A DNA stretch of 37,638 bases from an uncultured Geobacteraceae bacterium (GTDB taxonomy: Bacteria > Desulfobacterota > Desulfuromonadia > Geobacterales > Pseudopelobacteraceae), in contig CAIRBT010000065.1 of assembly GCA_903876875.1 (NCBI GenBank), positions 1 through 37,638 on the forward strand, given 5' to 3'. How positions within the stretch are numbered: position 1 is the first letter of the stretch; each line of letters starts with the position of its first letter. Below the pieces are notes generated by a model. That model was given only the letters and a program-made list of their open reading frames with translations. It ran no database searches and was not told where the DNA came from. Below, piece after piece: positions 17,011 through 33,734 of this stretch. Both the position numbers and the translations under genes were made by a program.

Positions 17011-19542
17011 TTATTTATATTCGCACATCTCGTCAAACTGGAGATACTTGTAGATCTTCTCGCTGTTTGGCGCAATCTTGGCATTGAAGATTTCCAGGAA
17101 TTCTGCCGGTGTGGGGAGTTTTCCGAGCAGTGCTGCCACGGCACCCAGTTCGGCGGAACCGAGGAATACTTTTGCTCCGTTGCCGATACGATCATCGAAG
17201 TTACGGGTAGAGGTGGAGAACATGCTAACACCATCGGGTACGCGGGCCTGATTACCCATGCAAAGTGAACAACCGGCGATTTCGATACGGGCTCCGAAGG
17301 CACTGTAGACGGAGAAATATGCTTCGTCTTTCAGTTTCTGCTGATCCATACGGGTCGGCGGGCAGATCCAGGTACGGACGGCCGGATTGAACTTCTGACC
17401 GCGCCAGATCTCAGCGGCAGCACGGAAGTGACCGATGTTGGTCATGCAGGAACCAAGGAAGACGTCTTCAATTTTCGTTCCGGCAACTTCGGAGAGCAGC
17501 TTCACATCATCTGGATCGTTGGGGCAGGCGAGAATCGGCTCAGTGATTTCGGCAAGGTCGATCTCGATAACCGCAGCATATTCGGCATTGGCGTCAGCCT
17601 CAAGCAGCGAGGGGTTCTTCAGCCACTCATTGGCGGCATCAATACGATTCTGCAGGGTCTGGGCGTCCTGGTACCCTTCTGCAATCATCTTCGTCATGAG
17701 TGCCACGTTGGAACGGAGATAGGTTGCTACGGACTCTTCGGAAAGCTTGATGCACCCGGCAGCGGCAGAACGTTCTGCGGCAGCATCGGTCAATTCGAAT
17801 GCCTGTTCAACGGAAAGATTCGGCAAACCTTCCATTTCAAGGATACGGCCATTAAAGATGTTTTTCTTGTTTTTCTTCGGTACGGTCAACAGTCCCTGCT
17901 TGATAGCCCAGTAGGGAATGGCGTTGACGGCGTCACGGAGGGTAATGCCGGGATTGAGAGCCCCTTTGAAACGTACCAGCACTGATTCGGGCATATCGAG
18001 CGGCATGAAGCCCATGGCACCGGCAAAGGCCACCAGACCCGAACCGGCCGGGAAGGAGATGCCGATGGGGAAACGGGTGTGGGAGTCACCACCGGTTCCA
18101 ACCGTATCGGGAAGCAGCAGACGGTTCAGCCATGAGTGAATAACGCCGTCGCCCGGCTTGAGAGGTACCCCGCCCCGCTCGGTGATGAACTGGGGAAGTG
18201 ATTTGTGCATTTTTACGTCGGCCGGTTTCGGATAGGCGGCCGTATGGCAGAAGGACTGCATGAACATGGGGGAAAGGAACTTCAGACAGGCAAGCTCTTT
18301 CAGTTCGTCGGCGGTCATGGGACCGGTGGTATCCTGTGAACCAACGGTGGTCATTTTTGGTTCGCAGGCGGTACCGGGGAGAATACCTGCCACGCCGCAG
18401 GCCTGACCAACCATTTTCTGCGCTTGGGAATATCCCTGACCGGCTTTGGGTACCGGATTGACCGGCAGGGTGAAAATGTCGGTGGCACCAAGACCTAAGG
18501 CAGCACGGGCACGATCAGTTACGGCACGGCCAATGATCAGCGGAATACGGCCACCGGCGCGGAATTCGTCGGCGACAGTATTGGGAGCGATCTGGAACGT
18601 GGAAAGCAATTCGCCCGCTTCGGAGGTAATTTCACCCTTGGCGGTGTTGATGACAATAACGTCACCGGTATTCATTTTGGTAACATCCGCCTTGAGGGGG
18701 AGTGCACCGGAATCCTGAGCGGTATTGAAGAAGATCGGAGCGATAACGCTACCGATGATGACGCCGGCGGTTTTTTTGTTCGGCACGCAGGGGATTTCCT
18801 GCCCGATACACCAGAGCACCGAGTTACAGGCGGATTTACGGGAAGAACCGGTACCGACCACATCGCCGACAAAGGCAACCTGGAAACCATCTTCACGGAA
18901 TTTGGCAATGGTGGCCAGACCATCGGGGAAACGGGTTTTACCCATTGCCAAGGCATGGAGTGGAATGTCAGGGCGGCTCCAGGCATCGCCTGCCGGTGAG
19001 AAGTCGTCGGTATTGATTTCACCTTCAACTTTGTAGACCTTGACCTTGATGATTTCAGCAAGGCTCGGCTTGTTGGTAAACCAGTCGGCATCGGCCCAGG
19101 ACTGAAGAACCCGCTTGGCGGCAGCATTGGTTGCGGAAAGCTCTACAACACGATCAAAACCGTCATAGACAAGGGTCATACCGCAAAGGGCGGTGGCGGC
19201 ATCATCTGCCAGCACGGGGTTACTCAGGGCATCAACAAGTGGTGCCACGTTGTAACCACCCATCATGGTTCCCAGCATACGAATGGCATCAACCGGCGTT
19301 ACCAGTGGTGATGTTTTGGTACCGGCAACGAGTTCGGCAAGGAATGCGGCTTTAACTTCGGCGGCCGGATCAACACCGGGAGAGACCCGTTCCTTAATGA
19401 GACCAAGCAGAAAAGCTTCCTGGCCCGCCGGTGGAGTCACCAGCAGATCGCATAAAGCGGCAGTTTGTTCAGGAGTCAGCGGGAGTGCGGGAATACCCTG
19501 GGCTCCCCTCTCTTTTTCATGTGCTAAATAGGCTTCAATCAT
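17011..19542 (-). CDS. acnB: Aconitate hydratase B
   Basis: Converts citrate to isocitrate in the TCA cycle through a [4Fe-4S] cluster; the apo form of family members also binds mRNA. The 843 residues are close to E. coli AcnB. Order: an N-terminal HEAT-like domain (MIEAYLAHEKERGAQGIP), the swivel domain from about residue 165 (DFSPAGDAWSRPDIPLHA), then the catalytic core. Cluster ligands are Cys699 (FLGSCMTNIGHF), Cys758 and Cys761 (GCSLCMGNQ), the same spacing as in E. coli. The start at 19542 has GAGGAGG upstream; a further 21 in-frame codons lack family similarity. It is monocistronic, with its own promoter and terminator. Confidence 0.97.
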   Translation of the reverse strand: MIEAYLAHEKERGAQGIPALPLTPEQTAALCDLLVTPPAGQEAFLLGLIKERVSPGVDPAAEVKAAFLAELVAGTKTSPLVTPVDAIRMLGTMMGGYNVAPLVDALSNPVLADDAATALCGMTLVYDGFDRVVELSATNAAAKRVLQSWADADWFTNKPSLAEIIKVKVYKVEGEINTDDFSPAGDAWSRPDIPLHALAMGKTRFPDGLATIAKFREDGFQVAFVGDVVGTGSSRKSACNSVLWCIGQEIPCVPNKKTAGVIIGSVIAPIFFNTAQDSGALPLKADVTKMNTGDVIVINTAKGEITSEAGELLSTFQIAPNTVADEFRAGGRIPLIIGRAVTDRARAALGLGATDIFTLPVNPVPKAGQGYSQAQKMVGQACGVAGILPGTACEPKMTTVGSQDTTGPMTADELKELACLKFLSPMFMQSFCHTAAYPKPADVKMHKSLPQFITERGGVPLKPGDGVIHSWLNRLLLPDTVGTGGDSHTRFPIGISFPAGSGLVAFAGAMGFMPLDMPESVLVRFKGALNPGITLRDAVNAIPYWAIKQGLLTVPKKNKKNIFNGRILEMEGLPNLSVEQAFELTDAAAERSAAAGCIKLSEESVATYLRSNVALMTKMIAEGYQDAQTLQNRIDAANEWLKNPSLLEADANAEYAAVIEIDLAEITEPILACPNDPDDVKLLSEVAGTKIEDVFLGSCMTNIGHFRAAAEIWRGQKFNPAVRTWICPPTRMDQQKLKDEAYFSVYSAFGARIEIAGCSLCMGNQARVPDGVSMFSTSTRNFDDRIGNGAKVFLGSAELGAVAALLGKLPTPAEFLEIFNAKIAPNSEKIYKYLQFDEMCEYK

Positions 19543-19614
19543 CGTAACATCCTCCTCTTTCTGGGTATATTCTACGGTATGGCAAGATGGTGAAAACAGC
19601 GTCAAAACCTATTC

Positions 19615-19690: not shown

Positions 19691-20563
19691 TTATTTCATT
19701 TTTAAATATCGCTGAAAACGGCTGTCAACATGGGCCTGTTTTGCGTAATCAGGATAGGTGGCCAACTGGGCCTTCAGACGGGCAATCCGTTCCGCCAGCG
19801 GCGGATGGGTGGAGAACCACGAACCGTTCTTCTCCTTACTCGTATTCTCCAGTTTCTGCAGTTTTTCAAGGACTCTGATAAAGGCCGCCGGATCATATCC
19901 GGTGCGGTAGGCCGTCTCCATGGCTGCCAGATCGGCCTCATATTCCATATCCTTATCAAGCCCCTTGTCAAAGAGTACTGTCTGCATACTGCCGATGGTG
20001 TCAGCCAGCTTTTTTCCCTGCCCTCCCCCCACACTGGCGGCGGTGATGGTGCCCGCCCCCTGGAGTAACTGGGCCCGCTGGGTGCTTTTCAGTGCATGTT
20101 TTGCCGCAACATGGCCAAGTTCATGGGCCAGTACCCCGGCAAGTTCGGCCTCGTTGTCCAATATGCCAAAAAGTGCCCGGCTGATAAAAATTACCCCTCC
20201 CGGGACGGCAAAGGCATTCTGCACCGGGCTATCCAGCACCGCAAAGGAGTAGGTGATGGTTGAACGTTTGCAGTTAGCTGCCAGGGCGGTTCCAACCAGA
20301 TTGACATACTGCTGCAGCTGTTCGTTGTTCACCGGGTTACCAAAGCGGGTTAAACCATCCAGCGCCAATCCCTCACCGATGGTTTTCTCGGTTTTGTAAT
20401 CAATGTCCCGGGAGCTTGCAAACATCTGGGTAGCACCGGCCAGAATTTTTCCCTCCTTGGAATCGGGCTTGACAATACTTTGAATGGCACTAAAAAAATC
20501 GGCCGACACCGGCAACGGCGAGCAGATCAACAGGGCAATGGCCAGGATAAGATAATGTTTCAT
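19691..20563 (-). CDS. M48-family zinc metallopeptidase, periplasmic
   Basis: A 290-residue secreted zinc protease. A signal peptide covers about residues 1-21 (cleavage likely after VSA). The peptidase domain carries the zinc motif HELGH (His147-His151) and the downstream EYEAD (207-211) with the third ligand, plus the family motifs AVPGGVIFISRAL and THPPLAERIARL. Relatives such as BepA and LoiP control outer-membrane protein quality; no TPR tail is present, so this is the short LoiP-like type. It is the last gene of the five-gene - strand operon; its ATG overlaps the SH3 gene stop by four bases (ATGA). Confidence 0.93.
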   Translation of the reverse strand: MKHYLILAIALLICSPLPVSADFFSAIQSIVKPDSKEGKILAGATQMFASSRDIDYKTEKTIGEGLALDGLTRFGNPVNNEQLQQYVNLVGTALAANCKRSTITYSFAVLDSPVQNAFAVPGGVIFISRALFGILDNEAELAGVLAHELGHVAAKHALKSTQRAQLLQGAGTITAASVGGGQGKKLADTIGSMQTVLFDKGLDKDMEYEADLAAMETAYRTGYDPAAFIRVLEKLQKLENTSKEKNGSWFSTHPPLAERIARLKAQLATYPDYAKQAHVDSRFQRYLKMK

Positions 20564-21108
20564 TGGTTACCCCCCGTCATCTGAGCATATTCACCAAGCT
20601 TCCCCTCTTTCAAAAAGGACTTCAACTCGGTGGGCGATACCTTCCGCCCCATGATTTTTTCCAGTGATTTTTTAGATAGCTCAGAGGTGCCCCGGGATTT
20701 TGCATAGGCAGCCGTTTCGGGAGACAGTCCCCGAATACTTCGGGCACTGTCGGCCTTGGCAGTGGTAATCTGGCTCTTTTTCATACTGTCACCAAAGAGC
20801 GGATCGTCGGAGCCCGTAACTTCGGCTACCGGCTTGGTTTCGGCAAGACGCCCGGCATACACCCAACCGTTCACTCCGGCCGCACTGCGCACCATCAGCC
20901 AGCGTCCCCCCGTTTCAACAACCGTTACCTCCGCCCCCACCGGTAGCTCGGCCACATTTTCCGACGTGGCCGAAGCCTCGGCCTTGAGTGTGGTACCGGC
21001 ACTCGATACCCACCGGATTTCCTCCCCCCACGCAAGCGAAGTACACATCAGGACAACCGCACATATCCCCACTTTGATTCCCATAGGTTCCCCTTTCATC
21101 CCTCTCAT
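20560..21108 (-). CDS. Secreted SH3-domain protein
   Basis: A 182-residue protein with a signal sequence and one bacterial SH3 domain at about residues 31-90 (WVSSAGTTLKAEASATSENV, VGAEVTVVETGGRWLMVRS, NGWVYAGRL). The rest is a Lys/Ser-rich helical tail with SPETAAYAKSRGTSELSKKS. SH3b domains usually bind peptidoglycan or peptides; this may place the neighbouring protease at the wall, which is inference. The ATG at 21108 overlaps the CHAT gene stop (ATGA); an internal ATG at 21084 with AGGGGA upstream begins a tidier signal peptide and is an alternative start. Confidence 0.8.
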   Translation of the reverse strand: MRGMKGEPMGIKVGICAVVLMCTSLAWGEEIRWVSSAGTTLKAEASATSENVAELPVGAEVTVVETGGRWLMVRSAAGVNGWVYAGRLAETKPVAEVTGSDDPLFGDSMKKSQITTAKADSARSIRGLSPETAAYAKSRGTSELSKKSLEKIMGRKVSPTELKSFLKEGKLGEYAQMTGGNQ

Positions 21109-24100
21109 TTATAATCTCCCGTCAGCACAAACGCCCCCCAGTATCCCGGATGCGGATAGCGGTTTTTCACCTGTTGCATGGCTTTCGCCAGACTTTCTGC
21201 CGTACCCGAAGCCAGAAAGTTCCGATAGAACTGTTTCATCAGAATAGCCGTGGAGACATCACTGACCCGCCACAAGCTTGAGATCAGTGCATGGGTGCCG
21301 GCAAACATGAATGCCCGGTTCATCCCCACCACATCATCGCCACTTTTGATATCACCAAGCCCGGTCTGGCAGGCACTCAATACCACCAAATCTGCCCGGA
21401 TATCCAGACCAAAGATTTCATCGGCCTGCAATCTCCCGTCGGCCTTATCATCCTTTGCCAATCTAACGGCGGAGAACAACGGATTCAGCGGGTCAAATTC
21501 ACCGTGTGAGGCCAGATGAATCACGCCAAATTCGCTGATATGCTCCCGCACCCAGCTCTCCGTTGCCCGCTCCCGGGTCAGAAACGTCACATCGGGATAA
21601 TTCCAGTGTATGGTACCGGCTTCTCGCTCGGCAAAGGGGAGATCAAGGGTGGAATTACCCAAGTCCGGATTACCAATGGCCAGAACATGACGTTTTCTCT
21701 CCGCACTACGACGCCCCATGGTGTATTTCAGCACCGAAGCGGCGGGGAGATAGAAGAGTTTCTGGCGATCCACCAGATAATCCTTCCCGTCATGCAACGT
21801 GGCAAAAGAAAGATAATGGAGGCTGCCATGGGGAATGATGCCCACGGACCGATATGCCGTCCCGTCAGACAGTTGGGAGCCGATCAGCAGCTCATACAAC
21901 TCCCGTGACTGTTTTTCCAGCGGTTCCAGATTTTGCAACATTCGCCGGTATGAGGCTATTTTTGTTGACAGCTGGGAAGCCGTCACCGGCTGAACCGACA
22001 GGGTGGATCGCTCCCGTTCGATGCGCCAGACGAGCAGGCAATTGGGCAACTGATAGTAGGAGAGCAGCACCACACCCGGTTCAAGTTGGGCTTTGATCTC
22101 TGCGAGGGTCGTCGGCTTCACCTTCACCAAGGCTAACAGCTCCGGCCTCTTTCTCTCAAGGTCAATCAGCAAATCCTGATAGGCTCCCCGCAACCGCTCC
22201 AATGCCTGCTCGTAACGCTGTTTTTCCTTTGGATTGGTTGCCTGGAGCAAAAGGGTCTCCTGTTCCAACAGCTCGTTTTTCAGCCGCAGTTGCCGATCAT
22301 ACAGTTCCTGATCAACCGAGCCGGCAAGGGACAGACGCTGCCGCCCCAGCATATCAATCAGGTTGCGGGAACGTGAACGTTCCGCCACGGCAAAGGCTTC
22401 GTCAGGTCGGTTCAGCTCAACGAGCACCCCCACCAGTTCTCCATAGACAGCCATTTTATCGGCAAGAAAGCCGTCTTTCAACTGGTCAAGTTTTATCTCT
22501 GCCCTCAAGTCCTCGACGGTATCAAGCGCCTGCCGGTAGAGCTGTACAGCCGTTTCAGTGTGACCTGCCCCCTTCTGCACACGGGCCAGGCCATACAATG
22601 CCCGCCAACGGACCTCCCGCAGCAGCAGTTGATCGGCACTTTCCAATGCCCCCCGATAACTGGTTTCGGCAGCGGTCATCTGTTGCAGAGCCATTTCGGC
22701 ATCACCACGGGCCAGGAGAATTTTGGCACCATTAACCTTGTCACCTATGGCGGTGGCAAGGGAGGCGGCCTCTGAAAACTGTGCTACGGCGGCAGTCGGA
22801 TCCCCCATTTTCAAGCGGGTCTGCCCCAGATTACGCAAATCATAGGCCAGTGCCCACCGGGAACCGAGTTGCCGGTCAATGGCCAGTGCCCGCTCCAGGG
22901 TGGTAACGGCTGCAGTATAGTCACCGGACTCACGCTGTACCAGCCCCATATTATTGAGAGTCGTCGCCACTTCATCACGTCGTACCGCAAGCTGTTCGGC
23001 CTGTTCCAGAGCCCCCCGCAGTTCTGTCATTGCCCGCTTATTGTCCCCAAGGGTCCACCAGATGAGCCCGCCACTGTTTTTGGCCATCACCTGTTCCAGA
23101 GGCCATTTTTCCGCCGTGGCCCGTTTTTCTACTCGTTCCCGCAGGTCAAAGGCCTCCTGATAGCGCCCCTGAAACCAGGCATTATTGGCCTGTTCAAGAA
23201 GGATACGCATTGTGGTACGGGGGGTGGCGTCACCGACCTTTGCGAGAGCCTCCCGATAGAACTGGTCGGCAGCGGTAAAATTGCCGAGCAACCGCTGGCA
23301 GCGCCCCCGTTCCAGCAGGGTTTCCGCCTCCAGCCCCGTGTTACCAAGCCGGGCGTAGAGGACTCCGGCCCGGGCATACTGCTGTTCGGCAACAACGTAC
23401 TGGTTGAGGCGCAGATCGTAAATCCGGCCAATATTCCGGTACTGTTCGGCCAGTGAATCATCATCTTTTAATGTTTGCCGTAAGGTCGCCGCATCTTCAA
23501 ACAACGAACGGGCCGCAGTGAAATTGACGGAATTCTCCATCACTATGCCGAAATCAGCAAGGGCGGACGCCTGTTCTTTGACCAGCCCCAGGTCGGCAAA
23601 CATCCCCACCCCCTCCTTCAAGGCGGCGGCGGCCTCCGTAAACCGTTCGGCATTTCCTAACAGCAGCCCGAGGCGGAGCAGGGCATCGGCATGGTCTGCC
23701 GAATACGGTTTTTCTAGTGCCATCCCCTTCACCACCGCCTCTCCATGGAAGATGGCCCGTTCCAGCAGACCGGCAGAAAAGGCACTTTCCCGCCCATAGC
23801 GGTGTAAGGTGGACGCCTGTTTTGCCAAGGTCGGATTTTCGGCAACAATAGTCAGAGCATTTTCAAAGAGGGAGAGTGCCCGCTGATAGGAACCGGCGTT
23901 GTGCGCTTTGACTCCCCCCTTGGCATAATCGGCAAAGCGGCTTTTCCCGAGACGCACCGCCTCTGCCCCATCCACCCCCCGATCGCCGATCAGCAGCCAG
24001 CCGGGAGCCAGCAGGGAACCGGCATCGGCAAGGGAACTGCTGCCATAGGCATGGACAAAGGGTGCCGAGTCACCGGCTCCACCGGCACTATGTACCAACA

Positions 24101-27100
24101 GGGAAGGTACCCCGAGAAGCGTAACCAACTGTGCGGAGAGTGCAGAAGCGGCTCCCCCCCCGGCCGGTGCCACCACCAGCGACAGATTTTCACCGGCCAC
24201 CAGTTCGAACAGGGAGTGACGAATCCCCGCTTCATCCTCCCATTCCGGGAGTGCATACCCACCGCCACCGCTGCGGGACGGCACCTTCGGCAGCAGACCG
24301 AATCTACCCGGTAACACCAGGGTCTGGCCATCGGCAATCCGCCCGGTCACCGGCACCGACGGCAATTTGAGAAACGGCTCTCCCCCCTGCCACCAGCCGG
24401 ATGGGTCGATAACCTGACGACGAAACGGCTTGCGCTGGGCAAGTGCCTGCACCAACTGAGCGCCATTCACCCCCCAGCTCACCGCCGGGATCGACGGAAA
24501 ACGGGAGGGATCTTCAACGATGGCATACGCAGGCCGACTGACCGTCAAACGCTCCGTAAGCTCGGACGTGAGGACTGTTTCGGCGGAAAGCTTACCGGTG
24601 GGTGCAATGGTAAACAGTAACCAGCGGGAGTCGCCCACGGGGGTAAAGCGCAGCACTTTTTTCCCGGGGAGCGCTTCCTGAATGTCGATCAACTCAGTCG
24701 ACTGTGCCACGATCAGACGGCACAAACGCCCCGCCGCCGTATGGCATTCCCGATCAAAAGCCTGCTGCAGAGCGGCCAACCGTTCCCCTGCCGCCCGCCG
24801 CTGCACCGGGTCACCATCGGGGAGGAGAGAGCTATAGACCACTGAGGCTGCCGCCAGTCGCACCGCCCCGTCACCGGCCAGGGCATAAAAGCGGGGAATC
24901 CGTTCACGCTGTACACCGAGCAGGTCGTCAATAACCGATCGTTCTTGTCCGAGGCGGAGTGTCAGGTACTCCCTCTCCACCACAGTAGCACCAGAGAGTT
25001 GTCCCGCCAGCCGATCTATCTCCACAAGGTGCGGTGCTGCGACCCGCAATTGTTCAACGGTAGCCGGATCATCAAGGCCGAGTGCCCCCCGGCCAAGCAG
25101 TTGCACCCGCTCGATTTCGCTCAGTTTTTCCAGTAAATTGAAGGCTTGTTCCGGATTTTTGGCGGCACGCGCCTCCAGAACCGATGAAAAGCGTTCCAGC
25201 ACTTCACCCTGCTGTGCATCATAGTCGGTCAGCGGCAGCCGTTCCAACAGGGCAACCGCCTCGTCATAACGACCAAGGGTGGCCAGTGCCCGCCATTCCA
25301 GAGAGAGAGTCCCCCCCGCCCGTGCTTCTTCCAGGGCGGCTGTTGCCGCAGCAGTGGCGGTTTCTGATAACCCCAGTGCGGTCAGCACGGCAGCACGATT
25401 CAGCTGTACCGTCCCACGTTGGCGTCGCCGCTGTGTGGTCACCTCACCAGGAGCGCTCTCGGCTGCGGCAAATAGTGCCCGATCCCATTTTTCCAGAGCT
25501 TTATAAAGCAGTGCCTGCCGTTCCCCCGACAGGGGTGCCGTTTGGGATAGACGTACCAACAGGGCACCGCTGTCATTGAGGTACCGTATGACAGTTCGAG
25601 AAGACACCCGTCCACGGAGACTGTCTGCAAGCCGTGAGACCCGTGCCTCAAGGGCAAGGAAATCGGCACGTTCCCCCTCCGTTTTCCCCGCCAGCAGGGA
25701 ACCCCAGTTGACCAGATTGAGCATGGCACTCACCGGATTTGCGGCCCGCAGTGCCAATTCCGTTGACCGGCGGAAGTCCGCAGCCCCACGAGCCACGTCC
25801 CCTTGGGCATATTCGATATGGGCGGTGCGATGTGACAGCAGGGACACCCCAAACAGATCACGTTCAGCAACCGCTCCGACATCGGCGGGATAGCGCTCCA
25901 GCTGTTTTTTCAGCAAGGCTCCCCCCCCCTTCAGATCACCAAGCTCGGCAAGAATCCGAGCCAGATAGCTCTCTGCAAGCCGTTTTTCCTGTTCTGCAGA
26001 AAAACCGAAGGCTGCATCGGTGGTGTCCCCTTTATCGAGGGCAAGCTGGGCAGCAATACCGAGGAGACCGCCACTCCGTTCGGCTGGTTTTTTTGGGTGA
26101 GGTGGATGAACCACCAATAGTTCAAGCAGTTGGACAAAGCCATCCCGGCTGGCCTTGAGAAGCCGTTGCTGTTCTTCACCTGAGGCGGCCTCTGCTTCCC
26201 GATAGGCGGCTATACTGGCTGAACGCCGATTTGCCGCAAGATTGCCAAAGAGGCCGAGCCCCCGGCTGAGGGTAAACGCCGCCTCAAATTGCTCACGGGC
26301 TGCGGCATACTTATCCGCTTCAAAAAAGGCAAGGGCAAGTCGATCATGAATTTCGGCGGCGGTTTCCGTCAGGCGGGGTACGGCTTCAAGCTCCGTTGCC
26401 ACGGCTGCTGCCAGGGAGGATAATTCGGTGCTACTGGCCACTGCAGCCGCACCATTCCAGTCGCCTGCAGAGGTAATGAGCCCCCGCTGCCGCTCCAACA
26501 GCAGGGTCATGGTGGCGGAAAAACGCTCCCACCCGGACGAAGGGGGTGCCTCGGGAGGGGTGGCACCGAGCCGTTCCAGTTCGGCTATGATTGCCTGATG
26601 TTCCAACAGTGCCCTTTCCCACGGTTTACTCCGCATGCTTTCGGTAAACAGTCGTTCCGTCACGCGCCGTGATAGACGGCCAAAGAGATCGAGGGAGCGG
26701 GAAGGCTTCAGACGCTCACTCACCAACTGCAGTGCCCGCTGATAGCCGGTAATCGGTGCCATCTTTTCACCCATCTGAAAGGCCGCGGCGGCGGAGCGTT
26801 GCTGAAAAATCAGCTCCGTATCGACATTGTCAAAGGGGATGCGAGAAGCCAGCCGCTGGGAGTAAAATTTCCAGGCGGTTGCCTTGCTCCCCAGCAGATA
26901 GGCACTGTTACCGATGTTCAGAGTAAGGTTAGCGCGATTTTCCGGTTGTTCAAGGGGGTTGTTGAGTAACCAGGCACGACGGTACAGAGCAAGGGAACGT
27001 TCCAAACCACCCCGTTCCCCGTACACGGTCTCCCTGATTTCTGCAATATACCCCCTGGTCTGGGGGGGATACTCGGACGACGGCAGCCGATCAGCTGCCC

Positions 27101-29378
27101 GTGCTATCAGTGCATCCGCCTCATCCAGAGCCCCCTTTCCCGGCAGGTAGGTCAGGGTAAGACCGGTCGCGTAGAGCAACACCGGATCTTCCGGGTATGA
27201 TGCCAGCTGTTTTCGATACAGCGCAAGCAGCTCCCCAGCCTGCCCCATGGCAGCCACGGCTTTGATATAGCCACGATGGGCCTCAATGCTGCTGCCGTCA
27301 GAGCGAATCAGATCCAGAAACAACGAGCGAGCCGCCGCCATTTCCCCCATACGATAGAGATTTTCGCCGGCGGCAACGGTTTTACGGACAGCAGCAGAGC
27401 GGGCAAGTTGGTAGAGCGGTGTCTCCTCCGGCTGCTCATTCATTTCCGTTTCATAGAGCCCTTTGGCTTCGGCATACCGTTCTTCCCGATAAAGCAGTTC
27501 GGCCAGGGCAAAACGCGCCGCCGCCGTGGCCGAGGCCACCACCGGAAACTTTTCCAGCACTGTGCGGTACGCATCTTTGGCAGCGGTCCATTCACCGGCA
27601 CCATAGGCCACATCACCCTGCCGGTTCCAGGCTCCCATGGCCAAACGGGGCAGCCGGGTCCGGTACCGCTCCGCCAGAGCTGAGAGTGCCGCAATATCAG
27701 CATGATCCCGGGGGGATATAAGATCGACAACGGCGGTTATGGCGGCATCGGCCCACTCTTCCTGATCGTCGAACGCCAGGGCAACATCAGCCAGTGCGGC
27801 AACGGCTCCCTCCCCTTTTTCCAGCCGGGACAACAGCAGGGCACGCCGGAATGCGGCCTCTGCCTTGAGGGGACGACCGGCACCACTCAGAGCGGCAACG
27901 GCCTCCAGACGGGCAACGGCTGAAAGCTGGTCGGCCGCACCGCCTCCATACCCGGCAAGAAGAAAGGCCATGTCTATCTGGAAGCGTGCCCGTGCATCGT
28001 CTCCCCCCCGGTCAGCGACCGTTTTCAGAGAGCGTTCCGCTTCTGCAAGAATTTCCTGACGTCGTTGCAGCAGAACCGCCTCGTTGCACCGTTGTACTGT
28101 TTTCAACCTGAGGCCGGCGATCTCCGCCAAGGCTCGTTCCCGGGGGAATTGCACGGAGCGACGTGCCACCCGGTCATACTGTTCAACGGCAGAGCCCGTT
28201 TCCCTCGCCTGCTCCATCAAAGTGGCCAACGCCAGACCGGCACGGGCACCCTCAACAGTCGGCTCCGTTTCCCGGGCAAGCACCCGGGCTGCTGCCAACC
28301 GGCCATGGGCCGGATCGGGCGGTTGCCGCTCCAAGATAATCCGGGCCACTCCCCACTGGTCACGGGAAGTCGGTTGGTCAGGAATTTCGCCGGAAACCGG
28401 CAGGGTCATCACCTGACCTCCCCCCGCTCCCCCCGCCACAAAAGAGAAGTGGTCTCCCGCCGGAACGGGTGCCACCGCCATCAGCGACAGTGCCGTCAGT
28501 GGCGAGAGAAAGGGAAACCCGTCTTCACCCTCCCGGCGGAGTTGTATCCTGAATATCTGCCCCATTTCCCGGGCGGCATCGTCACCTGCTACCGTCTGCC
28601 GGGTAAAGAGAATGTCCTCTGCCGTTTCCCACACCGGATAGAGATCCCGCCCCCCCCCCTGGGTCAACCGGGTGAGCTGTCCGTTACTGCTGTCCCAGAG
28701 CCAGATATTGCCGTTTCTCTGTGACGAGCGGGACACAAACAGCCACCGTTTTCCATCCGGCGCAGGAGCCGGAAAGGCGGCATCTATGGTGATCGGTAGC
28801 AGTTCACTGCGCTTTTCTTGTAAAGTAAGCCGCACCAGTTCACGGCGCTCCGCTCCGGGGAGCTGACGGTGATAGACCAGAGCGGAGCCATCAACCGTAA
28901 ACACCGGTGCATCATCGGCAGACTCCCGTCCGGTCAAGCGGGTCGGAACGGCACCCGCTTTTGTCGTGTCGAGAAGCCAGATGTCCCCCTTCACATCATC
29001 CTGGGCATCAACATAGGCAACCAGTGAGCCATCAGCGTTAAGTGCCGGTGCGGCAAGCCGCACCGGACTGCTCAGGAGCAGACGGGGCAGTTCGGCCACG
29101 GCAGAAAAAGCATAGAGCCAGAGTTCATCCCCCCGGTCCCCCCGCTCCACCGTAACCATGCGGCTGCCATTGGCGGCGCGGGCGGCATAGAGCACCGGTC
29201 GGGAGCTGAAGATGACCGGGCGGGGAACAATTTCTGGTCGGGAGCGAGGTGTGGGACGGGGGACTGCCGGTGCCAGCAGCTCATCACCTAGTGGCGCAGC
29301 GGGGGCAGCGGAAGGCGCCGTCAGCAGGAGGAGCAACAGCCCCAGACAGAGTATTCTCACCGGCCGGAGCGGCTTCAT
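21105..29378 (-). CDS. Giant secreted TolB-propeller/TPR/CHAT-domain protein
   Basis: 2757 residues. Order: signal peptide (about 1-27, very Leu-rich); TolB/WD40-like beta-propeller (50-340, repeated DGSLVAYVD, DGSALVYHR, DGKRWLFVS, GDIWLLD blades); first TPR array (370-1540); a degenerate CHAT-like domain (1560-1810); second, canonical TPR array (1815-2345, with GDYTAAVTTLERALAID); coiled coil (2350-2430); C-terminal CHAT domain (2433-2757). The C-terminal domain keeps the caspase-like pair His2625 (HLASHGEF) and Cys2670 (SACQTGLG), plus SSLWRVSD. The internal copy has Pro1690 and Ala1739 at these places. The start is ATG 29378, overlapping the lipoprotein stop as ATGA; a GTG at 29390 is possible. 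Runs of 8-10 G occur in the coding strand. Substrate unknown. Confidence 0.9.
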   Translation of the reverse strand: MKPLRPVRILCLGLLLLLLTAPSAAPAAPLGDELLAPAVPRPTPRSRPEIVPRPVIFSSRPVLYAARAANGSRMVTVERGDRGDELWLYAFSAVAELPRLLLSSPVRLAAPALNADGSLVAYVDAQDDVKGDIWLLDTTKAGAVPTRLTGRESADDAPVFTVDGSALVYHRQLPGAERRELVRLTLQEKRSELLPITIDAAFPAPAPDGKRWLFVSRSSQRNGNIWLWDSSNGQLTRLTQGGGRDLYPVWETAEDILFTRQTVAGDDAAREMGQIFRIQLRREGEDGFPFLSPLTALSLMAVAPVPAGDHFSFVAGGAGGGQVMTLPVSGEIPDQPTSRDQWGVARIILERQPPDPAHGRLAAARVLARETEPTVEGARAGLALATLMEQARETGSAVEQYDRVARRSVQFPRERALAEIAGLRLKTVQRCNEAVLLQRRQEILAEAERSLKTVADRGGDDARARFQIDMAFLLAGYGGGAADQLSAVARLEAVAALSGAGRPLKAEAAFRRALLLSRLEKGEGAVAALADVALAFDDQEEWADAAITAVVDLISPRDHADIAALSALAERYRTRLPRLAMGAWNRQGDVAYGAGEWTAAKDAYRTVLEKFPVVASATAAARFALAELLYREERYAEAKGLYETEMNEQPEETPLYQLARSAAVRKTVAAGENLYRMGEMAAARSLFLDLIRSDGSSIEAHRGYIKAVAAMGQAGELLALYRKQLASYPEDPVLLYATGLTLTYLPGKGALDEADALIARAADRLPSSEYPPQTRGYIAEIRETVYGERGGLERSLALYRRAWLLNNPLEQPENRANLTLNIGNSAYLLGSKATAWKFYSQRLASRIPFDNVDTELIFQQRSAAAAFQMGEKMAPITGYQRALQLVSERLKPSRSLDLFGRLSRRVTERLFTESMRSKPWERALLEHQAIIAELERLGATPPEAPPSSGWERFSATMTLLLERQRGLITSAGDWNGAAAVASSTELSSLAAAVATELEAVPRLTETAAEIHDRLALAFFEADKYAAAREQFEAAFTLSRGLGLFGNLAANRRSASIAAYREAEAASGEEQQRLLKASRDGFVQLLELLVVHPPHPKKPAERSGGLLGIAAQLALDKGDTTDAAFGFSAEQEKRLAESYLARILAELGDLKGGGALLKKQLERYPADVGAVAERDLFGVSLLSHRTAHIEYAQGDVARGAADFRRSTELALRAANPVSAMLNLVNWGSLLAGKTEGERADFLALEARVSRLADSLRGRVSSRTVIRYLNDSGALLVRLSQTAPLSGERQALLYKALEKWDRALFAAAESAPGEVTTQRRRQRGTVQLNRAAVLTALGLSETATAAATAALEEARAGGTLSLEWRALATLGRYDEAVALLERLPLTDYDAQQGEVLERFSSVLEARAAKNPEQAFNLLEKLSEIERVQLLGRGALGLDDPATVEQLRVAAPHLVEIDRLAGQLSGATVVEREYLTLRLGQERSVIDDLLGVQRERIPRFYALAGDGAVRLAAASVVYSSLLPDGDPVQRRAAGERLAALQQAFDRECHTAAGRLCRLIVAQSTELIDIQEALPGKKVLRFTPVGDSRWLLFTIAPTGKLSAETVLTSELTERLTVSRPAYAIVEDPSRFPSIPAVSWGVNGAQLVQALAQRKPFRRQVIDPSGWWQGGEPFLKLPSVPVTGRIADGQTLVLPGRFGLLPKVPSRSGGGGYALPEWEDEAGIRHSLFELVAGENLSLVVAPAGGGAASALSAQLVTLLGVPSLLVHSAGGAGDSAPFVHAYGSSSLADAGSLLAPGWLLIGDRGVDGAEAVRLGKSRFADYAKGGVKAHNAGSYQRALSLFENALTIVAENPTLAKQASTLHRYGRESAFSAGLLERAIFHGEAVVKGMALEKPYSADHADALLRLGLLLGNAERFTEAAAALKEGVGMFADLGLVKEQASALADFGIVMENSVNFTAARSLFEDAATLRQTLKDDDSLAEQYRNIGRIYDLRLNQYVVAEQQYARAGVLYARLGNTGLEAETLLERGRCQRLLGNFTAADQFYREALAKVGDATPRTTMRILLEQANNAWFQGRYQEAFDLRERVEKRATAEKWPLEQVMAKNSGGLIWWTLGDNKRAMTELRGALEQAEQLAVRRDEVATTLNNMGLVQRESGDYTAAVTTLERALAIDRQLGSRWALAYDLRNLGQTRLKMGDPTAAVAQFSEAASLATAIGDKVNGAKILLARGDAEMALQQMTAAETSYRGALESADQLLLREVRWRALYGLARVQKGAGHTETAVQLYRQALDTVEDLRAEIKLDQLKDGFLADKMAVYGELVGVLVELNRPDEAFAVAERSRSRNLIDMLGRQRLSLAGSVDQELYDRQLRLKNELLEQETLLLQATNPKEKQRYEQALERLRGAYQDLLIDLERKRPELLALVKVKPTTLAEIKAQLEPGVVLLSYYQLPNCLLVWRIERERSTLSVQPVTASQLSTKIASYRRMLQNLEPLEKQSRELYELLIGSQLSDGTAYRSVGIIPHGSLHYLSFATLHDGKDYLVDRQKLFYLPAASVLKYTMGRRSAERKRHVLAIGNPDLGNSTLDLPFAEREAGTIHWNYPDVTFLTRERATESWVREHISEFGVIHLASHGEFDPLNPLFSAVRLAKDDKADGRLQADEIFGLDIRADLVVLSACQTGLGDIKSGDDVVGMNRAFMFAGTHALISSLWRVSDVSTAILMKQFYRNFLASGTAESLAKAMQQVKNRYPHPGYWGAFVLTGDYK

Positions 29379-29980
29379 AGCGTCCGCCACCGACCATCGG
29401 CATCTTGAACCCTGGAGCCGGGAACGGAATTTTGCCGGTTAATGCGGGCAAATACCGTGCGAATAGCCGGAAGATCCTTACTGGTAAAGTTTTCATTGGT
29501 CTGTACCACCCGCCGCATCAGGAGATCCCGCGCCTGGTTAACCTCCCCAATTACCTGCTGAAATTCGGCATCGCTGTAATGTGCAGCAAAAGCTTTTTGA
29601 TCATCGGTAGAAATTTTTGCGGTATCCCGGGCAAACGGAGTCAAGAGCCCCTCACTATTTTCGCCGATCCAGCCAAACCGTTTAAATAGCTCCACATCAT
29701 CGGCATGGAAGGCAATCGTCTCCAGAGCCTTCGTGCCATCAAGCTGCTCGGGGGAATGGTGCCGGGGTGCCTCAATGGCCCCGGTGGGGGACACCCCCCG
29801 CACCGATGCGACGAGAAGCATATCCTCACTCAAACTGTTATAGCTCCCCAACACCTGATTTTCCAAAGAGGTCCGTTCACTGACCACCGTCACGTCAACC
29901 TTGGCAAGGGTACATCCTCCGACCGCCAGAGCACAGGCCACCACAAGGGCCATGGCAGAGACCGCTGATTTATTGTGCAT
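29375..29980 (-). CDS. DUF1318 (YdbL-like) lipoprotein
   Basis: A 201-residue lipoprotein with a lipobox ending at Cys23 (AVGGC). After a short segment LAKVDVTVVSERTSLENQ and a middle part with HADDVELFKRFGWIGE, the C-terminal 60 residues match the YdbL/DUF1318 pattern: VNQARDLLMRRVVQTNENFT, DLPAIRTVFARIN, VPGSRVQDADGRW. In E. coli, YdbL is the periplasmic partner of the YnbE lipoprotein and the AsmA-like YdbH; here the lipid anchor and DUF1318 part are one protein. GGAGG lies five bases before the ATG. It overlaps the AsmA-like gene by 11 bases and the CHAT gene by four. Confidence 0.85.
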   Translation of the reverse strand: MHNKSAVSAMALVVACALAVGGCTLAKVDVTVVSERTSLENQVLGSYNSLSEDMLLVASVRGVSPTGAIEAPRHHSPEQLDGTKALETIAFHADDVELFKRFGWIGENSEGLLTPFARDTAKISTDDQKAFAAHYSDAEFQQVIGEVNQARDLLMRRVVQTNENFTSKDLPAIRTVFARINRQNSVPGSRVQDADGRWRTL

Positions 29981-32900
29981 AATTCCTCCGTTTCAATACA
30001 ATGTCACCACGTTGACCGATAACCAGCGTATCTGCCCGCACCACATCAAGAAACGAGCGTAACGCCATAATACTCGTCCGGTTGGCAGCAGTCTCCTGCC
30101 GATGGGCCAGTTCGGAGATGCGAAGACGCTCCACCTTCGGCAGCTGAACGGTAACCCCCTTGATCTGTGCCTCCCCCTCAAGACTGAAGGCACCATCAGC
30201 CGCTATGGCACGGAGCCCCTTGAGACTCCCCATCCGCAACAGTTTGAGCTGCGCAACCATCTGCTCGTTACTTTCAGAGGGATCCAAAGCATAAAACAGC
30301 TGTTCAAGGGTCTGTGTACCAATGGTGCGAATGGTCACCCCCAACGTGAGCTGTTCAAAAAGATCACGCTGCTCCGGTGTCACCGGTGCGGTCAGGGTGA
30401 CGTCTCCGGAAATCTCTGCCTCATCGGGAGTAACCATTTTCCCCCGGGGCTTACCCTGCATGCGGGATAGATCCAGATGGGAAAACGAGCCCGATGCCGA
30501 AATCACCGGCATTTCCGGTACCAGATCCACCACGCCATGGGCCACAATGGTTCCACCCAACAGATCGGCCTGAAAAAAGCCTAACCCACTCTTTTCCCGG
30601 CTGAACAGCAGGTCACCTTCCAGTGAGGTCAGCTCCAACGGTGCTCCAGCCACTTTGGTTGAAACCCGGCGGATTGTGAACGAGCGGGAACCACTAACAT
30701 CGCCACGGAGATCGCTCCGAATGCGCCCCCGCAGATCCGCCGCACCTGCCACGGCTGAAGATACCGGTGGCGGACGGACAAGGGAGGCCGAAAGTGGCAC
30801 CCGGTTGTCCTTTTGTACTCTTTGAACCAATTCGTACAACCGATTGACAACAACATCAGCATGGATTCCCTCGACAAGCGTGCCGTTGGCAAGCCGCGCC
30901 CCGAAATCCTCCGCTTTCACGGCACCTCCGAAGGCGACGTCACGACCGCCATTTACATCAATACGGATGTTTCCGGAAGCGTGCCCCGCCAGATCAAGAC
31001 CGGGCAGCACCGGTGTAAGCAACGGTGAAAACGTCCCGTCAAAGGTCGTAAACAGGATAGCATCGAGCCGACGGGCGAGCGTGGCGGTGGCAAACGGTTC
31101 CTGTTCATCAAACAGGGAGTCAATACGACTGACGTTCAGCTCCCCCTCCTGCCGCACAGCAAAGGGTTCCAGCAGTATCTCCTCACGGATGTTCAATTCC
31201 TTCCAGCTTTGCAGCTGCCCCGCCAGATGCACCATACCATGCTGAGCATCAAATTTACCACCGGTTCGGGCACGGCTCTGCAACTCATCAAAACCTATAG
31301 TTCCCCCAAACGTAAGCCGCTCATCCTGAGAGGACGCAACAAAGCGCACCGGCGAAGTGGTGTGCAGGCCGGAAACCTTGATCTCTCCGGTGGCGGTGGG
31401 GATTACGGCCGATACGGCATCCAGCGTAAAACCACAAGCAACGGCTTCAAACTGCGAAAGAAGATTCCGGACTTTTTGCAACGGATTATTCCCGGAGACA
31501 GGGGACGTTTTTGTCAACGGTGCCGCCAGACTCCACTCAGCGGTAACGTTCCCCTCCCCCCCTACGCCGACCGGAACAAACGGAGCGATAAGCGGCAACA
31601 GCCGCTTCAGATCAGCATGTATGATCCCATGGGAGGCAACGGCATCCGGTGACCTGGCCGTGCGACTCCCCTCTCCGGTGAAGCGAACGGCATCCCCCCC
31701 CCACACATCGGCAGTAACCCGCTCCACCGTCGGCGGCACCCCCGGCACGGCAGAAAAAGTCACACCAAGCGCACTGAAAGCAGCCGACACAGGTACCGAC
31801 ACAGTTTTTTTCCCCGGAGTATTCACCTGAAGGGAGGCTGCCGTCAGCAGAAACTCCGGTATAGCGACAAGCAGTTCCCCCCGGGGGGTGGCGTGGAGAG
31901 TCAGACGTACCTGTTCATGTAACGTCCGCACCGACGAAGCGCGTCCCACGGAGCCACGGTCAAGGTCAAACTTTTGGGTCACTGCCACGGTGGCAGCCAC
32001 ATGACGGGGTGACGTACTTTTAACATTCACATCGGTGGCGTTTACGGACATAGTCCCCCCCGCCCCCTGGAGCGTCAACGGTTCTTTACCCGCAAGCAGG
32101 GCCTGCGTGACCCGCCAGCGCAGCTCTGCGCCCCCCCCCACCGGCAGGGCGGCAGAAAGCGGAAATGTGCCACTCTCAAGGGCAACAAACAGGTCCTCTA
32201 CCCGGGATACCCCCGCAGCCGTCTTGAACTCCAACCGGGGTAATTTGACAGCCAGATCCTTTACTGTCAGCTCCCCCTTGTTCTCCGTTCCGGCAAGGCG
32301 CAATTGCAAGGAGCGAAGTGACAGCAGGCCGGTCACATCGGTGACCGGCAGAGTGGGAGGAAACAAGGGTTCCAGGAGGGTAGCGACCGAGCCAATATCA
32401 AGCGTTGCGGGGCCAACCATCACTTCCAGTGCACGGCCGGGCGCGGCAGGATGGTCAACAAAGGCATGCCATGGCACATCAAGCACTCCGGGAAGCTGGA
32501 GTCGTCCGTCGGGAAAATCAACATGCTGGCTCCCCTGTTTGATGGTGAACCGCTGCTGTAACGTCCCGTTGAGCGGACCAATTGGCTCTGAGTGGGGTCG
32601 ATAGCCCGTGACCAAGAGGGCCTTCCCATCGATCAAAAGCGATGCCTGCAAATTCCGTTGGGCATCCACCTTGCCATGCAGCGTCACCGCAAGCTCCCCC
32701 CCCATTTTTGGAGAGTGTGCCGACAGAAAGGGAGCTAACACACCCTGTAGCAGCGGCAGATTAAAGGCACCATGGGCAACAAACCCCTCCGGCCGCCCCA
32801 TACTGCCGGACAGAGTGAGGGAAGTTCCCGGTGCCAGGCTCGTGACGGCAAGCTCCGCCCCGGTAAAACTCACCCGCTCTGTGCCGCTCACCAGATTACT

Positions 32901-33566
32901 GACCTTGGCACGGCACTCCACCAGTTCCCCCGGTCGGCCGTTCACGACAACCATACCGGTAAGAGAAGCCGTGACCGGACTGGCAACAAGTGACGGCATG
33001 GCCAGATGGAATGAAAAATGATTAAACCGAACCTCACGGTCCGGTTCTGCCGTCCGATAGCGGAGGGTGACCGGTTCCAGATCGACCGTCATCCGGATAT
33101 CAACCGGCAGGTGAAGGTCAAATGCTTGAATACTCCGAAGGGTCTCCGCCAGACGGGTCAACGGATCCCTGACCAACGGCAGTGGTGGTGGCGGCGGCCC
33201 GGGTGCCATCTCAGCCCGGATGTCCCGCGCCCGCAGCGCCAACCCCACACCGAAACGACCGCCGGCATCACGCCCCAGCGACGGAATCAGTTCAAGGTGC
33301 CCCACCTCCGATGAAAGGAGGGGAGCAGACCCCGCACCAAGCTTCAGACCACTCACGTCCACACCATTACGCCACCCCACAGACAGGGCACTCCACGTGA
33401 CCTGCCGTCCCAGTGAGCGAGACAGGATCTGTTTCAATGAATCCTGGATCACGGGGGAACCACACACCGTGGGAAGCAGAGTAACCAGAAGCACAACACC
33501 AAGCAAGCAGACAGTAGCTATCAGTGCCGATAACTTGAGGAGATATTTTAAATGTATGTTAGCCAT
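29970..33566 (-). CDS. AsmA/YdbH-like membrane-anchored protein
   Basis: A 1198-residue protein with one N-terminal transmembrane helix (about residues 10-33) and a long periplasmic part rich in beta strands. Early AsmA-type features: ILSRSLGRQVTWSALSVGW and SGLKLGAGSAPLLSSEVGHLEL. The C-terminal third shows the AsmA-like repeat style (DVSGSRSFTIRRVSTKVAG, FFQADLLGGTIVAHGVVDL, ISASGSFSHLDLSRM) and LQLPKVERLRISEL-type closing strands. YdbH, TamB and YhdP of this superfamily move phospholipids across the periplasm; the DUF1318 partner downstream favours a YdbH-like role. It is the first gene of the operon. A poly-Pro stretch PPPPPLPLV lies at about residues 124-132. Confidence 0.82.
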   Translation of the reverse strand: MANIHLKYLLKLSALIATVCLLGVVLLVTLLPTVCGSPVIQDSLKQILSRSLGRQVTWSALSVGWRNGVDVSGLKLGAGSAPLLSSEVGHLELIPSLGRDAGGRFGVGLALRARDIRAEMAPGPPPPPLPLVRDPLTRLAETLRSIQAFDLHLPVDIRMTVDLEPVTLRYRTAEPDREVRFNHFSFHLAMPSLVASPVTASLTGMVVVNGRPGELVECRAKVSNLVSGTERVSFTGAELAVTSLAPGTSLTLSGSMGRPEGFVAHGAFNLPLLQGVLAPFLSAHSPKMGGELAVTLHGKVDAQRNLQASLLIDGKALLVTGYRPHSEPIGPLNGTLQQRFTIKQGSQHVDFPDGRLQLPGVLDVPWHAFVDHPAAPGRALEVMVGPATLDIGSVATLLEPLFPPTLPVTDVTGLLSLRSLQLRLAGTENKGELTVKDLAVKLPRLEFKTAAGVSRVEDLFVALESGTFPLSAALPVGGGAELRWRVTQALLAGKEPLTLQGAGGTMSVNATDVNVKSTSPRHVAATVAVTQKFDLDRGSVGRASSVRTLHEQVRLTLHATPRGELLVAIPEFLLTAASLQVNTPGKKTVSVPVSAAFSALGVTFSAVPGVPPTVERVTADVWGGDAVRFTGEGSRTARSPDAVASHGIIHADLKRLLPLIAPFVPVGVGGEGNVTAEWSLAAPLTKTSPVSGNNPLQKVRNLLSQFEAVACGFTLDAVSAVIPTATGEIKVSGLHTTSPVRFVASSQDERLTFGGTIGFDELQSRARTGGKFDAQHGMVHLAGQLQSWKELNIREEILLEPFAVRQEGELNVSRIDSLFDEQEPFATATLARRLDAILFTTFDGTFSPLLTPVLPGLDLAGHASGNIRIDVNGGRDVAFGGAVKAEDFGARLANGTLVEGIHADVVVNRLYELVQRVQKDNRVPLSASLVRPPPVSSAVAGAADLRGRIRSDLRGDVSGSRSFTIRRVSTKVAGAPLELTSLEGDLLFSREKSGLGFFQADLLGGTIVAHGVVDLVPEMPVISASGSFSHLDLSRMQGKPRGKMVTPDEAEISGDVTLTAPVTPEQRDLFEQLTLGVTIRTIGTQTLEQLFYALDPSESNEQMVAQLKLLRMGSLKGLRAIAADGAFSLEGEAQIKGVTVQLPKVERLRISELAHRQETAANRTSIMALRSFLDVVRADTLVIGQRGDIVLKRRNYAQ

Positions 33567-33678: not shown

Positions 33679-33734
33679 TATTCACGATAAGTTCAGCATG
33701 TTCACTGTATACATGTGTTATGTGGGAGAATGGC

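Follow-up and report, generated by a model that had tools for sequence, protein, structure and literature searches.

We examined a five-gene operon in a 37,638-nucleotide stretch of DNA (the window) from an uncultured Geobacteraceae bacterium (GenBank assembly GCA_903876875.1, contig CAIRBT010000065.1). Five open reading frames (ORFs) follow one another on the - strand in the order given by an initial annotation of the same sequence, at coordinates that match its description (Table 1). They encode an AsmA-superfamily protein, a DUF1318 lipoprotein, a giant protein that ends in a CHAT domain, an SH3 protein, and an M48 metallopeptidase. Pfam scores of the window proteins are 118.3 bits for M48, 32.1 for SH3_3, 200.7 for CHAT, and 25.7 for DUF1318. 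The giant protein is 2,761 amino acids (aa) long when read from a GTG codon and 2,757 aa long from an ATG four codons further in.

Table 1. Coordinates of the operon genes and of the two CHAT domains in the window
Feature	Position	Strand	Description
AsmA-superfamily protein	29970-33566	-	1198 aa; N-terminal membrane helix 4-36, beta strands ~60-1149
DUF1318 lipoprotein	29375-29980	-	201 aa; lipobox ending Cys23; YdbL-like C-terminal domain 96-201
Giant TolB-like propeller/TPR/pseudo-CHAT/TPR/CHAT protein with predicted signal peptide	21105-29390	-	Dyad His2629/Cys2674 (GTG numbering)
Degenerate second CHAT domain	23781-24773	-	Residues about 1540-1870 of the giant protein
Catalytic CHAT domain (predicted)	21114-21911	-	Pfam match, residues 2494-2759
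SH3 protein with predicted signal peptide	20560-21108	-	182 aa; conserved ADSARSIRGLSPE motif past the SH3 fold
M48 metallopeptidase with predicted signal peptide	19691-20563	-	290 aa; HELGH motif intact

As initially annotated, each of the five proteins carries an export or anchoring feature, judged from patterns or a model: a helix in the AsmA-like protein, the lipobox in the DUF1318 protein, and signal peptides in the other three. Export signals were called from hydrophobicity together with lipobox or AxA patterns rather than with a trained predictor, and start codons are uncertain. By this measure an export pattern is present in 46 of 78 CHAT, 37 of 44 SH3, and 34 of 43 M48 proteins, and a lipobox in 55 of 67 DUF1318 proteins.

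The initial annotation also described every junction as overlapping, by 11, 4, 4, and 4 bases. This is the case in the window if the giant gene starts at its ATG: the overlaps are 11 bases for AsmA-DUF1318, 4 for DUF1318-CHAT (16 from the GTG), 4 for CHAT-SH3, and 4 for SH3-M48, the CHAT-SH3 overlap hinging on the choice of the upstream SH3 start. That overlap is not conserved among relatives (5/44, versus 48/63, 57/68, and 25/35 at the other three junctions, with longest-ORF starts). By eye, small gene pairs resembling toxin-antitoxin modules lie directly after the CHAT gene at two loci (L109:18798-19332 and L102:14430-14983); at least one CHAT-SH3 gap, in the genus member at L109, exists because such genes sit there.

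Gene order and co-inheritance

Named genomes were scanned with an alignment of CHAT proteins minus their last part (A1), which yielded at least 80 loci, 26 of them from the window's genus. Among the loci listed, all five genes occur in order at 40 of the 50 where both flanks could be tested. AsmA and DUF1318 lie upstream of CHAT at 59 of 70 testable loci (DUF1318 only at 2, neither at 9), and SH3 and M48 lie downstream at 42 of 56. With the window's genus left out, the corresponding counts are 20/29 for all five genes, 33/44 for AsmA-DUF1318, and 22/35 for SH3-M48. The five-family order that the initial annotation named as support for a system is thus kept, and the pattern it named as contrary evidence, CHAT, SH3, and M48 genes scattered and never beside the AsmA-DUF1318 pair, was not observed at these loci, although the modules are scattered in some relatives (Desulfonema magnum, Nitrospina). 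By their records, the carriers are Geobacteraceae, Desulfuromonadaceae, Desulfobacterales, Desulfovibrionales (Humidesulfovibrio, Desulfocurvus), Deferrisomatales, Nitrospina, and Nitrospirae; most of these groups belong to Desulfobacterota, and many carriers are sulfate- or metal-reducing bacteria. The culturable Geobacter sp. OR-1 and Desulfonema magnum are both represented among the loci. SH3 and M48 form a single ORF at eight loci (L143, L150, L156, L157, L164, L165, L166, and L178), of which the four assignable ones are all from Desulfovibrionales. Two fusion genomes (G114, G367) additionally hold an intact, unlinked SH3-M48 pair (L272, L273).

The genes are also gained or lacking together. 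Among 39 genomes of the window's genus, CHAT was found in 29, AsmA in 30, SH3 in 28, and DUF1318 in 27, and the AsmA set consists of the 29 CHAT genomes plus G018, which is 78% complete and whose AsmA gene reaches the contig end. Nine genomes are without all four searched genes, and six of these nine are at least 90% complete. M48 was left out of this search because it has paralogues, and proteins matching CHAT only at the C-terminal end (G035, G042) were not counted. In 37 further genomes of the family outside the genus, a search at E <= 1e-5 turned up no AsmA relative. Of 395 genomes drawn evenly from the phylum, 31 had a CHAT match at E <= 1e-60. Fourteen of them, from 10 families, were counted as the long type (12 with frames of at least 2,685 aa, G385 in two pieces, and the contig-cut G170, counted by E-value and genus), and 17 shorter proteins (frames up to 1,188 aa) were dropped. 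The search scored no more than the two top candidates in each genome and may have overlooked some long CHAT genes. Strong matches to SH3 (E <= 3.1e-45) occurred in 12 genomes and to DUF1318 (E <= 1e-54) likewise in 12, all within the 14, and 11 of the 14 had CHAT, SH3, and DUF1318 together. Weaker matches, to SH3 in 83 genomes and to DUF1318 in 36, were taken for other subfamilies.

We then considered 20 genomes from the CHAT scan chosen for a missing neighbor. DUF1318 of the CHAT-system type was found in 19 of them. It already adjoins CHAT in eight (L125, L144, L154, L168, L169, L177, L181, L189); in the 12 where CHAT stands apart from it, DUF1318 is present elsewhere in 11, of which G465 probably reflects a contig break and G467 has a CHAT N-terminal fragment beside DUF1318. 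Within the reach of the contigs, SH3 did not adjoin CHAT in any of the 20; it was found elsewhere in 16 of them (E <= 1.2e-23), while the remaining four gave weaker matches, including one contig-edge fragment. Where DUF1318 lies away from CHAT, it adjoins AsmA at L212 and L214-L217 and stands without AsmA at L213, L225, and the Nitrospina-type loci L218-L222. The L213 genome has a strong AsmA match on a separate contig (3.5e-213). Of nine genomes, those of Nitrospina and similar type together with G466, eight have AsmA-profile matches at E <= 1e-5; the weaker of these matches could be to other paralogues of AsmA. Where SH3 lies away from CHAT, M48 comes next in all 19 regions inspected; at L265 the SH3 frame was hidden by the choice of frame, yet located at the searched position.

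Linkage of the five families is well supported, and given this conservation and co-occurrence the association is not due to chance. Gene order, broken clusters, and unlinked co-occurrence together divide the operon into three modules: AsmA with DUF1318, CHAT, and SH3 with M48. A few loci show disrupted frames: the longest CHAT frame at L165:9143-18679 begins inside AsmA/DUF1318, and AsmA at L127 and L158 and CHAT at L189 are each in two frames, through assembly error or decay.

The encoded proteins

The AsmA-like protein of the window has no Pfam match, including to DUF748, AsmA, and YhdP. Within its ten-member alignment (A3), DUF748 is matched by five members (best 2.4e-13), AsmA by four (1.3e-9), and YhdP by four (9.3e-9). 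An AlphaFold2 model (predicted local distance difference test, 82.1; predicted template modeling score, 0.55) places a long run of strands after the N-terminal helix, and its comparison with solved structures returned LPD-3 at E 9.2e-8. The AsmA assignment therefore comes from family matches of relatives and the predicted fold, not from similarity to YdbH. We regard the protein as a probable trans-periplasmic lipid bridge with a long beta groove, as its modeled fold suggests. The original label "YdbH-like" proved too specific: PF11739 was found in 0 of 10 members at E <= 1 and hhalign gave a probability of 3.5% against the single E. coli sequence, while the same PF11739 model recovers E. coli YdbH at 3e-291. 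The window's genome encodes another AsmA-family protein, so this bridge is probably not the sole one.

DUF1318 (PF07027) is matched by all ten members of the lipoprotein alignment A2, window included, at E <= 1 (best 1.6e-9), the window protein scoring just under the cut-off of 27 bits. It is homologous to E. coli YdbL over residues 96-201 (hhalign E 3.9e-7) and has a conserved N-terminal stretch, VDV.VVSERTSLENQVLGSYN. YnbE (PF13617) is not among the nine families listed for A2, and its hhalign probability is 4.9%, in the signal-peptide region only; a very short strand may still be shared with YnbE. The pair resembles E. coli YdbH-YnbE-YdbL in that an AsmA-superfamily protein is followed by a gene with a DUF1318/YdbL domain and a lipoprotein partner is present. 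It differs in showing no sequence match to YdbH or YnbE and in carrying the YdbL domain on the lipoprotein itself, and the E. coli stretches examined have no annotated gene for CHAT, SH3, or M48. YnbE acts with YdbH in moving glycerophospholipids to the outer membrane (PMC11784454). Other DUF1318 lipoproteins of the phylum likewise follow a large gene whose product has a hydrophobic stretch at its N-terminus (5/5 loci inspected), but their own N-terminal stretch is CVTVNIYFPAA or similar and no CHAT adjoins. Only one of those five large proteins matches the AsmA profile (9.6e-5), and one of four scanned hits DUF748 weakly (0.029). From this comparison of sequences, the bridge pair likely predates its tie to CHAT.

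The His-Cys dyad of the giant protein is invariant (62/62, window included). Its C-terminal CHAT is, on modeling, a separase-like protease domain, and we predict peptidase activity. The N-terminal region bears a propeller resemblance only: TIGR02800 scores 39.9 bits, far under the cut-off of 343, so the protein does not belong to TolB. A degenerate second CHAT domain was recognized by hhalign against the C-terminal one (P 1.1e-9), while the controls (reversed, five column-shuffled, and seven other alignments) all gave P > 0.07. This region has an alpha/beta fold in model residues 1-240, and by eye the His-Cys pair is absent at its aligned positions. Compared with separase and Csx29 (the TPR-CHAT protein of Craspase), the window protein has a signal peptide, a TolB-like propeller, and an extra degenerate CHAT between two TPR blocks, and its gene lies in an envelope context.

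HExxH is kept in all 35 separate M48 proteins (L110-L189) and in 18 of 19 unlinked M48 proteins next to SH3. The window M48 scores 82.2 bits against the curated BepA model (cut-off 570) and 64.7 against LoiP (365). Its best structural match is PDB 3c37 (E 2.1e-32), a Geobacter protein, followed by BepA (1.4e-17). Like all three, it is an M48 metallopeptidase, but it has an SH3 partner gene and is too short for the C-terminal TPR of BepA. Past the SH3 fold, SH3 proteins of the CHAT system carry the motif A-D-[ST]-[AS]-R-S-I-R-G-L-S-P-E; among 64 distinct sequences the second Arg is present in 63 (with one gap), the first Arg in 56, and the Asp in 50. Motif patterns occur in 0 of 8 SH3 proteins outside the CHAT system, a contrast that is partly by construction because the gathering profile already held the motif. 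The separase cleavage consensus is D/E-x-x-R, and the fit of D-x-x-R to it makes cleavage of the SH3 protein a lead and nothing firmer. Some SH3-M48 pairs outside the CHAT system adjoin CHASE2-like genes (L290-L294, by eye), suggesting another use of the pair.

A proposed system and its alternatives

We tentatively propose, with confidence a little short of even, that the five genes form an envelope-homeostasis system in which a lipid bridge is coupled to two periplasmic proteases. The proposal builds on what the analysis above shows: domain content, a conserved dyad, modeled folds, and genes that keep their order, fuse, are absent jointly, and co-occur. From there we infer periplasmic export, the cargo, the signal, and which protein cuts which. 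The initial annotation had a caspase-like protease and a metalloprotease wired to such a bridge, which they would possibly cut or license under envelope stress. The genetic tie of a caspase-fold protease and a metalloprotease to an AsmA-type protein and a YdbL-like lipoprotein is borne out by the kept order, the fused genes, their shared absence, and their co-occurrence even where unlinked; the identification with YdbH falls away.

In the proposed system, the AsmA-like protein and the YdbL-like lipoprotein would form a lipid bridge from inner to outer membrane. The exported separase-like protease would use its helical repeats and dead CHAT domain to sense or scaffold partners, and SH3 with M48 would act as a periplasmic quality-control protease whose SH3 subunit is probably cell-wall- or partner-binding. 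The giant protein may sense the condition of the bridge or the outer membrane, and its site-specific cuts would then adjust M48 proteolysis and bridge assembly. This coupling would be akin to that of NlpI-Prc and LbcA-CtpA, here hard-wired through co-inheritance of bridge, TPR-protease sensor, and metalloprotease. The proteases and lipoproteins of those two systems are not known to be related to the window ones, nor is either system known to share an operon with a bridge. Each pairs a TPR lipoprotein with a periplasmic protease and is affected by AsmA phospholipid bridges: P. aeruginosa that overproduces TamB, YhdP, or YdbH has a higher level of a CtpA substrate, and in E. coli a link has been drawn between NlpI-Prc and the transport of phospholipids to the outer membrane (PMC12569750). 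A sharper version, which we rate as rather improbable and which takes its cue from the SH3 motif, is a caspase-like cascade: CHAT would cut SH3 after the conserved Arg of D-S-x-R-S, switching M48 on or off and so gating the AsmA bridge. If true, the cascade would subject lipid traffic between bacterial membranes to a proteolytic checkpoint, a kind of system of which we know no description.

Several observations weigh against the proposed system. SH3-M48 does not adjoin CHAT at 14 of 56 loci, and Nitrospina-type genomes have CHAT, DUF1318, and SH3-M48 unlinked, with no AsmA beside DUF1318. Two of the modules also exist without this CHAT: SH3-M48 pairs do so at 8 of 8 weak-family loci inspected (two of the genomes concerned, G307 and G348, have a shorter CHAT protein, and another, G013, has the CHAT system in addition), and DUF1318 lipoproteins occur behind a large membrane-anchored gene. 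HExxH is lost in 3 of 8 SH3-M48 fusions (in two more, L157 and L165, it was not found in its usual context) and in the unlinked L267, so M48 proteolysis is not always needed. The CHAT export pattern reaches only the 46 of 78 proteins given above. The AsmA-like model matches solved bridges at a template modeling score of 0.16, and beta barrels outscore them in VIA-align. Finally, the co-occurrence counts ignore phylogenetic kinship.

The AsmA-like protein could instead be a TamB- or GspN-type assembly factor for outer membrane proteins or surface lipoproteins, with CHAT and M48 proteolyzing stalled or incoming clients. Two relatives within M48, BepA and LoiP, work at the outer membrane, and BepA is the closest solved structure after 3c37. 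GspN is reported to transport lipoproteins (PMC12802150). However, no Omp85/TamA-like gene is among the five, and the YdbL-like DUF1318 partner points to the YdbH-YnbE-YdbL lipid system, and we regard this explanation as unlikely. Reading the giant protein as a defense or cell-suicide protease (of the Csx29 or gasdermin-activating type), merely co-transcribed with envelope genes, would fit its strong structural match to Csx29 and the CHAT proteases known from Craspase and other conflict systems. We consider it highly improbable: the curated Csx29 model scores 42.9 bits against a cut-off of 300, PADLOC offers no more than a generic TPR model (2.5e-12) and a weak hit to BovA (0.0021), more than half of the CHAT relatives show the pattern of a signal peptide or lipobox, and the protein is co-inherited with DUF1318 and SH3 even when unlinked.

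The second-best structural match of the giant protein is DdvA, a transmembrane anti-sigma factor (E 1.4e-16; PDB 8rot, 8rw5). DdvA shares the periplasmic TPR-CHAT part and has a membrane helix and a cytoplasmic anti-sigma part before it; its active site is incomplete, whereas the dyad is invariant in the family of the window protein. A similar device, a periplasmic TPR-CHAT stress sensor whose cut signals to gene expression with the lipid genes as regulated targets, nevertheless seems very unlikely here. No anti-sigma model is among the profile matches of the window CHAT protein, whose short N-terminal signal peptide leads into the propeller region and which shows no cytoplasmic part, and no sigma factor is among the five genes. 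Least credible of all is that the genes are neighbors through operon convenience, without shared function. Broken clusters exist, and SH3-M48 has a genomic site of its own, since aconitase B is nearby in the window as well as at the CHAT-unlinked L260. Against convenience stand the joint absence in 9 of 39 genus genomes, co-occurrence when unlinked, the SH3-M48 fusion, and an order kept at 20 of 29 testable loci outside the genus.

The initial annotation knew of no description of this combination, and none turned up in the literature we searched, which is not proof of absence. Each part is of a known kind; it is the combination and its wide, co-inherited distribution that appear undescribed there. 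To our knowledge, the control of AsmA-type lipid bridges is an open question even in E. coli. The co-inheritance of an AsmA-type protein with separase-like and M48 proteases across many genomes, in one phylum and beyond, offers natural candidates for regulators of the bridge. A separase-like protease whose catalytic pair is conserved would thereby also have a place in the bacterial envelope, beyond CRISPR and conflict systems of the cytoplasm.

Neighboring genes

A divergent gene for a subtilase (S8) with putative Ig domains lies directly upstream of the operon (window 33720-36260); among the AsmA-flank loci L031-L060, a subtilase is found within the 1.5-kb flank only at the window and its closest relative, L032. 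Aconitase B is encoded downstream of SH3-M48 in the window (17011-19605), one gene further on in G011 (L108), and two genes on from the CHAT-unlinked SH3-M48 pair at L260 (N-terminus read by eye). This recurrence suggests that the site may be ancestral for the pair.

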